Assembly (NCBI GenBank): GCA_016210825.1
Contig: JACQTM010000058.1
Coordinates: 1-34,153 of the forward strand
Direction: 5' to 3'
DNA from: Hyphomicrobiales bacterium
Lineage (GTDB): Bacteria > Pseudomonadota > Alphaproteobacteria > Rhizobiales > Xanthobacteraceae
DNA length: 34,153 nt
Within the stretch, counting starts at the first letter, position 1; every line of letters begins with the position of its first letter. The translations under genes and the position numbers were made by a program. Below, piece after piece: positions 1 to 34,153 of the stretch. The notes beneath the pieces were generated by a model. The model was not told the DNA's origin. It did not search any database and saw only the letters and a list, made by a program, of their open reading frames with translations.

Positions 1-230
1 GTGTTTGAGGCTTGCTCCGTGTTCGCCCCCGGTGGACACAGGGTTCCTATCCACCGCTAGTGCCCGGACCGCACTCCAGGCGGGATGCCACGGCTTGGGC
101 CTCCACGAACGCGCTGCGTCGGCAACGCGCCCATGGCCACCGCCTCCCACCCCACGCCGCGTGACGAGCGCTTAACGTCCCCGGTAGCCGGGGCGGGATC
201 ATGTGAATATAATCCTAGATCGCGGCGGGA

Positions 231-695
231 TTATGACGGGCGAATTCCCGATCGCCCGCGCGGCCGCGGCGTGCGCGCGGTGTCGAGAACGTCGAGCACC
301 GGGCAATCCGGCGCCGTCTTGCCGGTGCAGCGCGCGACCGTGCGCGACAGCAGGCGTTCGAGCTTGCCGAGGTCGGACATTTTCGCGCGGATGTCGTGAA
401 GGTGACGCGTGGCGATCTTGCGGACGTCGCCGCACGACGCCTTGCCCGGTCCGCCAAGGTCGAGCAGCGCACGAATCTCAACGAGATTGAAGCCGAGTTC
501 ACGCGCGCGGCGGATGAAGGCGAGAATGCGAACGTCGTCCCGGCCGTAGAGCCTATGGCCGCCTTCGGTGCGGCGCGGTGCGGCGAGCAGCTTGATGCGT
601 TCGTAATAGCGGATCGTCTCGATATTCACGCCGGACAATCGGGATAACTCACCGATCGGCAACCCTAGCGCTCGCGAAGCCGTGATCGGGGCCAT
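231..695 (-). CDS. merR: MerR-family mercury-responsive transcriptional regulator
   Basis: Protein from ATG at 695: MAPITASRALGLPIGELSRLSGVNIETIRYYERIKLL... is a MerR HTH; three Cys (GKASCGDV, ARCTGKTAPDCPVLD) match MerR metal-binding positions; divergent from merT. Confidence 0.93.
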   Translation of the reverse strand: MAPITASRALGLPIGELSRLSGVNIETIRYYERIKLLAAPRRTEGGHRLYGRDDVRILAFIRRARELGFNLVEIRALLDLGGPGKASCGDVRKIATRHLHDIRAKMSDLGKLERLLSRTVARCTGKTAPDCPVLDVLDTARTPRPRGRSGIRPS

Positions 696-6417: not shown

Positions 6418-6590
6418 GATCCACCCGTCCCAAGACTGAATTATTGTCGCGCTCCGGACCATAATACCAGCCCATTAGTTGCTGTTTTTTTGTGCTTTTT
6501 TCGGTCATACAGGCCCCCCCGATGAACGCCCATGGCTTGACACGGGGCGAAGGGGCAGTGTCTTTCGGCGCGATTTCGCGCAAGGACCCT

Positions 6591-10222: not shown

Positions 10223-10393
10223 CGCGGGAATTCGATCCACCCTTTCGCCATATTCACCTATAACCGTCATACCTGCCTTTATGTCTGCTACGTTCATTGC
10301 GCCGGAACTTCGTCGAGGTGACTTGGCCGTGCCGTATTGTCGGTGTGCGATCGATGCGGCGGTGGCGGCGAATGTGGGAGTGTTGTGGTGAGC

Positions 10394-23858: not shown

Positions 23859-24207
23859 CGTCCCCTGACTCGATACTGCTGGGTGCCGGACCCTCCCAAG
23901 GCCCTAACGCGGCACCCCGTCTCGACCCACCCCGCAGCCCCCTTGATTGGGTGCACAAAATGGCTCTGGCAAGGCAAAACCTGTTGTAAATGCACCACTA
24001 AAAGTTAAATCCCTCCGACCATGAATTAACCATGCCGTGGCTCCCGGGGGTGGCTAGGAAGCGCCGGCGCGGGAACCTGCGGAAAAGGCTGGCATTGCAG
24101 GGTTTCCACCGCCGGGTCATATGATCCGCCGGCGGCGCAAGCCGCCCCCGCCGTCCGCGTCAAAACTGTTTCATCCACAGGAACTTGCTCGAATAAGGAC
24201 CCCGCCC

Positions 24208-25713
24208 ATGGCTGACGCCCCGAAGCTCGTGTTTGCACCCTTCGGGGCCGCAAAAGTCCCGCCCAAAACCGGCGTTCTTGTGGTGTTCTGCGACGAGGAG
24301 CTCAAACTCGGCTCGGCCACCCGCCAGGCGCTTAAAGGCGCGGGCGACCTGATCGCGCGCGCGGCCGCGTCGGATCGCTTCACCGGAAAGAGCGGGTCGG
24401 CGCTCGATATCGTGGCGCCAACAGGACTCAAGGCCGCGCGGCTGGTCGTGATCGGCACGGGCAAAGAGGCACTCAAAGCGCAGGACCTGGTCAAGCTCGG
24501 CGGTGCCGCCACCGGCCGCATTCCTGCTAACGCGGCGCACGCGACGATCATTGCCGAAATGCCGGGCGGCGCAATGAAGCCCGACCAGGCCGCCGAACTC
24601 GCGCTCGGTGCGACGCTGCGCGTTTACGCCTTCGATCGCTACAAGACGAAGCGCAAGGAGGGCGAGGAGCCGCCGAGCCGGCGCGATATCGTTATCGCGG
24701 TGGGCGATGTCGCGCGCACACGCAAGGCCTGGAGCCGGAATGAGGCGGTGGCGAACGGCGTCGTGTTCGCGCGTGATCTCGTCAATGAGCCGGCCAACGT
24801 TCTCTACCCAGAGGAATTCGCCCGCCGCGCCGGAAAGCTGCGCAACCTCGCCGTCAGCAACGACGAGCTTGACGTAACCGCGATGAAGAAACTTGGCATG
24901 CACGCGCTGCTCGGCGTCGGCCAGGGTTCGGCGCGCGCGAGCCGCGTCGTCGTCATGCGCTGGAAGGGCGGCAAATCCGGCGCCGACCCGGTCGCCTTCG
25001 TCGGCAAGGGCGTGTGCTTTGACACTGGCGGCATCTCGATCAAGCCGGCGGCGAGCATGGAGGACATGAAGGGCGACATGGCGGGCGCTGCCTGCGTTGT
25101 CGGCTTGATACAGGCGCTCGCCGCGCGGAAAGCCCACGTGAACGCCGTCGGCGTCATCGGCCTTGTCGAGAACATGCCCGCCGGCAACGCGCAGCGGCCG
25201 GGCGACATCGTCAAATCCATGTCGGGGCAGACGATCGAGATCATCAACACCGACGCCGAGGGCCGCCTCGTGCTCGCCGATGTGCTCTGGTACACGGCGA
25301 AACGCTTCGAGCCGAAATTCATGATCGATCTCGCGACGCTGACCGGCGCGATCATCGTCTCGCTTGGCCACGAATATGCCGGGCTGTTCGCAAACGACGA
25401 CAAGCTCGCGGAACGTTTGACTAAGATGGGGGAGGCGACGGGTGAGAAAGTCTGGCGCATGCCGCTCGGACCGGAATACGACAAGCAAATCGATTCGAAA
25501 TTCGCCGACGTGAAGAATACCGGCGGGCGCATGGGCGGCGCGATCACGGCGGCGCAATTTCTCCAGCGCTTCGTCGGCAAGACGCCATGGGCGCATCTCG
25601 ACATCGCCGGCACCGGCTTCGCCTCGCCGCAGAACGACATCAACAAAAGCTGGGGCTCGGGCTTCGGCGTTCGCCTGCTCGATGCATTGGTGGCGGAGTA
25701 TTACGAGAAGTGA
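24208..25713 (+). CDS. pepA: Leucyl aminopeptidase
   Basis: [47 protein letters not shown]. Confidence 0.96.
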
Positions 25714-25722
25714 GATTCGGCC

Positions 25723-25986
25723 ATGAAACCGAAACGCAGCGAAGTTATCGACGTTCTCGAAACCCTCATGCAACGCATCGCTGGCTATCCAGACGCGGCA
25801 CTGCGGGAATTGATGCAGGCGATGGATAAAATCGAGAGGAAGCATGACCTGCTCTATCGCCTCAGCGATGACGAGCGGGCGGCAGTGCAGGAAGGTCCTG
25901 CCCAAGCGAAGCGAGGCGAGTTTGCGACGGACGAAGAAGTTGAGGCGATCTTTGCACGTCATCGCAGGCGAAAGATTCGTAAGTGA
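25723..25986 (+). CDS. Antitoxin-like small protein (type II TA, RelB/ParD-like tail)
   Basis: ...LSDDERAAVQEGPAQAKRGEFATDEEVEAIFARHRRRKIRK; C-terminal pattern typical of RelE/ParE-partner antitoxins; no toxin ORF follows. Confidence 0.6.
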   Translation: MKPKRSEVIDVLETLMQRIAGYPDAALRELMQAMDKIERKHDLLYRLSDDERAAVQEGPAQAKRGEFATDEEVEAIFARHRRRKIRK

Positions 25987-26008
25987 CAGATACTCGTTGC
26001 AGCTAAAG

Positions 26009-26067
26009 CTCGGAGCTTCGGCGGGCGCCTGCTCGATACGCTCGTGGCGGAGCATTATGAGAAGTGA
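26009..26067 (+). pseudogene. Remnant of a pepA 3' end
   Basis: 53-nt ungapped match (45/53 by hand, 26015-26067 versus 25661-25713): encodes SFGGRLLDTLVAEHYEK* versus pep[18 protein letters not shown]. Confidence 0.92.
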
Positions 26068-26704
26068 TGCGCGAATTGCTTCGCGTTTACGTACCAGAGA
26101 CGGAACAGCACGAATGTTTTTGGCCGACGACCGTCCAAGGACGCTCCGAGACGCAACGGAAATAAAGCGTCGTCGAAAATTGCTTGCTGAGCCACATATG
26201 CGCGGACTGCGCGAATACGTCGAAAGCCTGCGGTCAAGAGAAATCCAGGTGCCTGATTTTGACCCTATGGACGCGGGTATCGATGCACAGGCCCTTTTTC
26301 TATTTGAAAAGCCCGGCCCTCTAGCCGCTGCATCCGGCTTTATTAGTCGCAACAATGACGACCCGACTGCCGAGGCTACTTTCAATTTTATGGTCGAGGC
26401 TGAAATCCCTCGCAGCAAAATTGCGATTTGGAATGTCATTCCGTGGTGGGATGGACAAATTCAGCTAAACGTGGAGCAAAGAAATCGCGGCATAGAAAAG
26501 CGTTTCGTGCTCGTTTCGCTTCTTCCTCGTTTGACAGCGATCATGTTCGTAGGTCGAAACGCAGCTCGGGTATTACCGCTGTTCGCCAACGTAAAGTACT
26601 GCTACGAATCTGCGCATCCGTCCGCGCGCGTGCGAGCTAGATACCCCAAGCGTTGGCGTTCAATTCCCAGCAAATGGGCCCAAGTGAAGTCGCATTTCAC
26701 ATAA
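26057..26704 (+). CDS. Uracil-DNA glycosylase-superfamily protein
   Basis: DAQALFLFEKPGPLA (motif A-like) ... KIAIWNVIPWW ... ESAHPSARVRARYP (motif B-like HPS); ATG lies inside the pepA tail remnant in another frame. Confidence 0.75.
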   Translation: MRSDARIASRLRTRDGTARMFLADDRPRTLRDATEIKRRRKLLAEPHMRGLREYVESLRSREIQVPDFDPMDAGIDAQALFLFEKPGPLAAASGFISRNNDDPTAEATFNFMVEAEIPRSKIAIWNVIPWWDGQIQLNVEQRNRGIEKRFVLVSLLPRLTAIMFVGRNAARVLPLFANVKYCYESAHPSARVRARYPKRWRSIPSKWAQVKSHFT

Positions 26705-31238: not shown

Positions 31239-31497
31239 CGTAGTGTCTCCTGTGTGTTGGATGTGTTCTCACATCCTGGGCATTCGTCGCGTGGGGGGTG
31301 TGGTCGGTTCAGGCCGTTCCGGCGGATAACGCAAGCGTGACCACGAATCCGAATAATGCTCTAAGTCATTATAAATACAGAGATATTGTATTTGGTGGGG
31401 GACCATGCGGGCTCGCCCGGCTCGGCTTGCCGCTCAAGGAGACCGCCGCTATAAGCCGCCGACCCTGGTTTCTACCCGCAAAATGAAGGACGATCCG

Positions 31498-31920
31498 ATG
31501 GCGGTCGAGCGGACTTTTTCCATCCTCAAACCCGACGCGACCACGCGCAATTTGACTGGCGCCATCAATGCCATGATCGAGAAGGCGGGCCTGCGCATCA
31601 TCGCGCAAAAACGCATCCGCATGACACTCGCCGAGGCCGAGACGTTCTATGCCGTGCATCGCGAGCGGCCGTTCTTCGGCGAGCTCGTGCAATTCATGAC
31701 CTCGGGACCCGTGGTTGTGCAGGTACTCGAGGGCGACAATGCCATCGCCAAGTATCGCGATGTGATGGGTGCGACCGATCCAGCGAAGGCGGCCGCGGGC
31801 ACAATCCGGAAAGTCCACGCCATGTCAGTTGGGGAGAATTCCGTGCACGGATCCGATGCGCCGGATACCGCGGCGAAGGAAATTGCGCAGTTTTTTTCCG
31901 GCAACGAGATCGTCGGATGA
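31498..31920 (+). CDS. ndk: Nucleoside diphosphate kinase
   Basis: [36 protein letters not shown] active-site His. Confidence 0.96.
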
Positions 31921-32038: not shown

Positions 32039-32824
32039 GTGGAGGGACTCTGGGCCGACGTGCTGTCGACGACATTTTGGATCGGCGTCGGCAAGATCAT
32101 TGGCGTCAACATCATCCTGTCCGGCGACAATGCGGTCGTTATCGCGCTCGCTTGCCGGATGCTGCCGCCGCGGCAGCGTATGTGGGGAATGATTCTCGGT
32201 GCCGGCGTCGCGGTTCTGCTGCGCATATTGTTCACGCTCGTCGTCGCGCAGGCGATGGAATACCCCTACCTCAAGTTGGTTGGCGGCATCCTTCTGTTGT
32301 GGGTCGCGATTAAGCTCGTCGTGCCGGAGGAGAGTCATGGCGAGGGCAAGATCGAGGCCGCTGAGAATCTCTGGCGCGCGGTGCGTATCGTCGCTATTGC
32401 CGACATCGTCATGAGTTTAGACAATGTGATCGCCATCGCCGCGACTGCCGAGACAGCGGCAGCCTTGGTGGATCCCGCGCATGCGAGCACGATCAAGGCC
32501 ATCCTGATCATCATCGGTCTTGCGACCAGCATTCCCATGATCGTCGCCGGCAGCGCGCTGCTAATGATGCTGCTCGAACGCTATCCGATCCTGGTCTGGG
32601 CTGGCGCCGGTTTGCTCGGCTGGGTCGCCGGCGACATCATGATCAAAGATGACGCTTTGTATCGCTGGTTCCCGGCAACGGTGGTCGATCTAATCCATCG
32701 CTATCCGGTCTTCGGCTCGCTATACTTAAACATTGCAGCGATTGCCGGTGCGATTTTCGTCATCGCATTCGGCTATATCGTAATGCGAATGCGGCGGCCT
32801 GCCGCGGAGGTCGGCGACGCGTAG
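32039..32824 (+). CDS. TerC family integral membrane protein
   Basis: IIGVNIILSGDNAVVIALACRMLPP; VIADIVMSLDNVIAIAA-type repeat (IADIVMSLDNVIAIA); GTG start with AAGGGGG RBS. Confidence 0.92.
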   Translation: MEGLWADVLSTTFWIGVGKIIGVNIILSGDNAVVIALACRMLPPRQRMWGMILGAGVAVLLRILFTLVVAQAMEYPYLKLVGGILLLWVAIKLVVPEESHGEGKIEAAENLWRAVRIVAIADIVMSLDNVIAIAATAETAAALVDPAHASTIKAILIIIGLATSIPMIVAGSALLMMLLERYPILVWAGAGLLGWVAGDIMIKDDALYRWFPATVVDLIHRYPVFGSLYLNIAAIAGAIFVIAFGYIVMRMRRPAAEVGDA

Positions 32825-32837
32825 CTGAGAGCGAACG

Positions 32838-34153
32838 ATGCACGAGCCCTTGCAAAAAACGGTCCGTGCATCGGTCTGCCCGCACGATTGTCCCTCGACC
32901 TGCGCGCTCGAGGTCGAGGTCATCGACAAGCACACAATTGGCCGCGTGCGCGGTGCCGCGGACAACGCCTATACCGCGGGCGTGATCTGCGCCAAGGTCG
33001 CGCGTTATGCCGAGCGCATCCATCATCCCGATCGCTTGACGCGCGCACTGCGCCGCAAAGGCGGGAAGAGCTCGGGCGAATTCGAGCCGATCGCCTTCGA
33101 CGACGCGCTCGATCTCGTTGCCGAGAATTTCATGCGCGCGGAAGCGCATCACGGGCCTGAGGCGGTTTGGCCCTATTACTATGCCGGCACCATGGGCCTC
33201 GTGATGCGCGACGGCATCAACCGATTGCGCCACGCGAAGAAATATTCCGGCTTCCATTCGACCATTTGCGTCAATCCGGCCTGGACCGGCTTCATCGCCG
33301 GCACCGGCCGGCTTGCCGGATCCGACCCGCGCGAGATGGCAAAATCCGACCTCGTGATCATCTGGGGCACCAATGCGGTGAACACCCAAGTCAATGTGAT
33401 GACGCACGCCGTGCTCGCGCGAAAGGAACGCGGCGCCAAAATCGTCGCCGTCGATATCTATATGAACGGAACGATGGAGCAGGCCGATCTCGCGGTGATG
33501 GTGCGCCCGGGCACCGACGCGGCGCTCGCCTGCGCGGTTATGCATTGCCTGTTCCGCGACGGCAAAGCCGATTGGGACTATCTGGAAAAATACACCGACG
33601 CGCCGCGTGAACTCGCCGAGCACGTGCGCACGCGCGGTCCGGAATGGGCGGAAAAGATCACCGGCTGCCCGGCGGCGACGATCGAGGAGTTCGCGCGCCT
33701 CGTCGGCGCGACGAAGCGCGCCTATTTCCGTCTCGGTTATGGCTTCGGACGCTCACGCAACGGCACGGTCAACATGCATGCGGCAAGCTGCATCGCCGCG
33801 GTGACGGGCGCATGGCGCTACGAAGGCGGCGGCGCCTTTCACAACAACGGCGCCATTTACCATTGGGACCGCACCATGATCGAAGGCCTCGATGTCGTCG
33901 ATCCGAAGGTTCGCGTGCTCGATCAATCGCGCATCGGGCCGATCTTGTGCGGGGACCGCGACGCGCTTACCGGCGGCCCCCCGGTCACCGCATTGCTGAC
34001 GCAGAATACTAATCCGGTCTCGGTCGCGCCCGAGCAGGAACGCGTCAAGCGCGGCTTCGCCCGCGATGATCTCTTCGTCTGCGTGCACGAGCAGTTCATG
34101 ACCGAGACCGCGCGCTAGGCCGAAGTTGTGTTGCCGGCAACGATGTACATGGA
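32838..34153 (+). pseudogene. Molybdopterin-containing oxidoreductase, interrupted by in-frame TAG at 34116-34118 and running off the window
   Basis: SVCPHDCPSTCALEVEV (Fe-S-type N-terminus), NPAWTGFIAGTGRLAGSDPREM, NTNPVSVAPEQ; after TAG the same frame continues AEVVLPATMYM. Confidence 0.8.

Follow-up and report, generated by a model that had tools for sequence, protein, structure and literature searches.

The window analysed here (34,153 nucleotides) corresponds to an entire contig, C373, of a fragmented MAG related to the Xanthobacteraceae, which comprises 401 contigs, is 80% complete and has an estimated contamination of 1.4%. At the right-hand end of the window, genes for a nucleoside diphosphate kinase (NDK) and a TerC-family membrane protein are followed by an open reading frame (ORF) of 426 codons (32838-34118 with its stop codon) coding for the N-terminal part of a molybdopterin oxidoreductase (Table 1). 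Residues 9-63 and 73-425 were assigned by Pfam to Molybdop_Fe4S4 and Molybdopterin, respectively; because of these domains and of orthologues 72-83% identical to the ORF, at 80 loci retained from the genome collection, we consider it a real gene. Its best relatives are found in MAGs and genomes named Pseudorhodoplanes, Rhodoplanes, Xanthobacteraceae and Afipia, and the orthologue group is common in Hyphomicrobiales/Azospirillum and uncharacterised. The recoding known in the formate dehydrogenase superfamily is that of TGA to selenocysteine (Sec) at the Mo ligand. Alignment points to Cys144 as the putative Mo ligand of the present protein; it is encoded by an ordinary Cys codon, so the superfamily's known recoding site is not the TAG described below. 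Elsewhere in the window, a 759-codon open frame (24160-26439, minus strand) lies antisense to a peptidase M17 gene (24121-25713); at 62% G+C long frames often arise antisense to genes, and this one is unlikely to be a real gene.

Table 1 Features at the right-hand end of the window and the evidence for each.
Feature	Position	Strand	Evidence
Nucleoside diphosphate kinase gene, upstream neighbour	31405..31920	+	Pfam NDK, synteny
TerC-family membrane protein gene, TAG stop, upstream neighbour	32039..32824	+	Pfam TerC, synteny
N-terminal 426 codons of the molybdopterin oxidoreductase gene (full gene most likely ~697 codons), cut by the contig end	32838..34115	+	Pfam, orthologues
Cys144 codon, ordinary Cys, aligned with the Mo-ligand Cys/Sec of formate dehydrogenases	33267..33269	+	Alignment to FdhF of 7qv7
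Final 60 bases of C373, end-to-end match to the C312 terminus 10302-10361 (minus strand), 8 mismatches	34094..34153	+	
In-frame TAG; C312 has TTG (Leu)	34116..34118	+	Sequence comparison
GAA (Glu); Asp in C312 and in 84/84 orthologues	34122..34124	+	Alignment
TAC (Tyr); Phe in C312 and in 84/84 orthologues	34146..34148	+	Alignment

The ORF closes at a TAG located 36-38 bases before the end of C373. A previous sequence-only reading had described this codon as an amber interruption of a conserved segment, and the bases and the position that it quoted are exact, in frame with the 426-codon ORF. Its statement that the frame stays open afterwards is also true, though the contig ends after 35 more bases.

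With the end of the window as query, a search of this MAG led to a second contig, C312, whose terminus matches positions 34094-34153 end-to-end with 52 of 60 bases identical. C312 reads TTG (Leu) for TAG, and its frame remains open for 278 residues, down to a TGA. The extension of the contig called for in the sequence-only reading is thus available indirectly, through a neighbour that is open to the natural C-terminus and lacks the TAG. In nearly all relatives the N- and C-terminal halves join in exact register, the part shared by the two contigs being FMTETAR, and their identities to the same relatives are about equal. Each half is present once in the MAG; all other matches are superfamily members at 24-28% identity. 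The C373 half covers positions 8-301 of the PF00384 profile and the C312 half positions 295-353; the latter also carries Molydop_binding (PF01568), so that Molybdop_Fe4S4, Molybdopterin and Molydop_binding follow one another in order across the two contigs, as in members of the superfamily. Neither half reached a curated cut-off of NCBIfam.

The gene order points the same way. NDK, TerC, the oxidoreductase, often a DoxX-like gene and then the genes of C312 lie on single contigs in dozens of relatives; C373 ends with NDK, TerC and the N-terminal half of the oxidoreductase, and C312 opens with its C-terminal half followed by the further genes of this neighbourhood, which from their sequences we take to include purN, purM and genes for a CDP-alcohol phosphatidyltransferase and a polyphosphate kinase. 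As in the relatives a single gene within a conserved neighbourhood comprises both halves, C373 and C312 must be adjacent, with the break inside the oxidoreductase gene. At the far end of C312 (1-101) we observed a short dispersed repeat, parts of which match 23 other places of the MAG at 82-99% identity, and which may be the cause of C312 stopping there.

We then examined the conservation of the site across 84 orthologues. The residue at the TAG position is variable (Met in 56, Val in 12, Ala in 8, Leu in 3, and Ser, Tyr, Ile, Trp and Cys in 1 each) and none of the 84 carries a stop there. The proposal that TAG had replaced a Tyr codon therefore loses its ground, Tyr being found in a single orthologue and the rival contig reading Leu. 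From the site onward, the 12-codon tail of C373 contains, besides the stop, Glu for an invariant Asp and Tyr for an invariant Phe, all three in the terminal 38 bases. Conserved columns are broken in 0 of 66 cases in the C312 half and in 3 of 173 in the C373 body; for the tail, the Fisher p is 0.03, the stop not being counted. The stop lies beyond the natural variation, yet two more anomalies fall in the same 38 bases, which makes the sequence suspect rather than the gene. A regular-expression search for the motif in the other molybdopterin enzymes of the MAG gave no match and was of no informative value. Among the orthologues, that on the chromosome of isolate AGun1 (CP078014.1; L078, locus 6440-6455) lacks about 90 residues, its 689-aa alignment jumping from query residue 489 to 580, a gap that would correspond to an internal deletion or to an assembly error.

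The eight differences between the two contig ends are of two kinds. Three are damaging, each with A in C373 and T in C312; the remaining five either leave the residue unchanged or contribute to an Ile/Val change. Rarer codons (GCA, TTG and GTT) occur in the C373 tail. An origin of the tail from elsewhere was rejected: its last 42 bases, searched with up to 3 mismatches in 385 genomes of the class, were found in none besides the source MAG, and no piece of it of at least 12 bases recurs in the rest of the window on either strand. For the last 69 bases, the best matches in the family are 87-89% identical. The tail may mix base errors with reads of a co-occurring relative, and is in either case an unreliable reading of the genome.

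Other contig ends of the assembly were compared in the same way, 80 further contigs being read in stretches and 163 ends included. After removal of a palindrome, five terminal overlaps were left: C373/C312 and C301/C113, both inexact, and three exact ones of 20, 46 and 47 bases. In the C301/C113 pair (C301:1-330, L190; C113:1-330, L262), 13 mismatches occur in 330 bases, mostly in one 90-base stretch; 12 of the 13 are transversions. These mismatches alter 10 residues of one open frame, and a comparison with 24 homologues comes out 64 to 6 in favour of the C113 residues; the end of C301 thus carries wrong bases, independently of the C373 case. A 24-base terminal match between C374 and C4 was dropped as palindromic, as it occurs in the same-direction control too. 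Plain k-mer overlaps left by the assembler were rejected as an explanation, since the terminal overlaps vary in length (20, 46, 47, 60 and 330 bases). The other end of the window (1-400) was also considered. Its positions 3-246 resemble C70:5142-5387 (L148) at 81%, and the genes are probably paralogous; the match is local and not end-to-end, and says nothing on overlap errors.

Taken together, the TAG is very probably an artefact of the end of C373, an assembly error rather than biology. The sequence-only reading had offered a nonsense mutation, a sequence error or a suppressed stop and had chosen none; the second is the one that we retain, with high confidence. The assembly would have broken inside the gene, with the first 426 codons in C373, the remainder in C312, and two ends that overlap and disagree. 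The terminal bases of C373 would probably stem from a single read or a few reads, either wrong or derived from a co-occurring relative; TAG would stand in place of what is most likely TTG (Leu) in the genome, and the invariant Asp and Phe are altered too. As expected of such an artefact, the anomaly is found at the terminus only, C312 is free of it and continues the gene, and another end of the assembly (C301) is faulty while three overlaps are exact. Both the attribution of the wrong reading to C373 rather than to C312 and its cause at the level of reads are what we infer from these observations. Against an artefact, the five mild differences resemble natural divergence and not random error, and the sample may contain a genuine variant sequence. 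The oxidoreductase gene of the organism is most likely intact, with about 697 codons, and the TAG is an ordinary finding.

An alternative is that the nonsense mutation is real, C373 coming from a strain with a broken, decaying gene and C312 from a strain with the intact one. The strain-like character of the synonymous or conservative differences speaks for it, and relaxed selection would be compatible with the D-to-E and F-to-Y changes. However, the 426-codon body is intact, with only 3 of 173 conserved columns broken and without the further disabling changes of a pseudogene; neither half occurs twice in the MAG, whose estimated contamination is low; every anomaly is confined to the contig terminus, and the C301 end is demonstrably wrong. 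We consider this explanation unlikely. The same low probability applies to its particular form, in which a co-occurring strain would carry a recently broken allele of the terC-linked oxidoreductase, with a true amber codon 427 and the early loss of two invariant residues.

Functional readthrough, in which the TAG would be suppressed or reassigned and decoded as an amino acid, is extremely improbable. It agrees with the open frame past the TAG, but no CTA anticodon was present among the 33 tRNA genes found in this 80% complete MAG, so that the amber-suppressor tRNA whose search had been suggested did not appear. Moreover, TAG serves as the normal stop of three homology-supported genes of the window (TerC, cyclase-family and ketoacyl synthase), the in-frame stop is kept in none of the orthologues, and the recoding of the superfamily affects the Mo-ligand codon, here ordinary Cys. 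Finally, a natural end of the protein at the TAG, with the C-terminal half as a separate gene, has a negligible probability: the ORF formally closes there, but the orthologues, instead of ending at this position, continue past it into the C-terminal part without a change of frame, and the cut would split the PF00384 domain.

With the artefact of the C373 end as the preferred explanation, a false lead is removed: the TAG warrants no annotation as pseudogene, recoding event or amber-suppression site. Since wrong bases can occur at contig ends of this MAG, as seen for C373 and C301, any frame break or odd residue less than about 150 bases from a contig end in the assembly should be compared with overlapping contigs before being interpreted.

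With the Mo-bisPGD oxidoreductases of the formate dehydrogenase / DMSO reductase superfamily, the present enzyme shares the Fe4S4, Molybdopterin and Molydop_binding domains; it falls below every NCBIfam curated cut-off, so that no substrate is assigned. The selenocysteine recoding of formate dehydrogenases resembles our case in that an in-frame stop interrupts a member of the same superfamily, but here the codon is TAG and not TGA, stands at codon 427 and not at the Mo-ligand position (Cys144), and is not conserved. A further likeness is offered by the curation of MAGs: according to the guide of Chen et al. 2020 (PMC7111523), assembly halts at points of uncertainty, scaffold ends hold variant sequences, and the usual overlaps are perfect and of k-mer length. 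Like the cases described there, C373 stops inside a gene at an uncertain point and its neighbour C312 holds a variant of the same bases; unlike them, the C373/C312 overlap is inexact, and the overlap lengths in this MAG vary from 20 to 330 bases.
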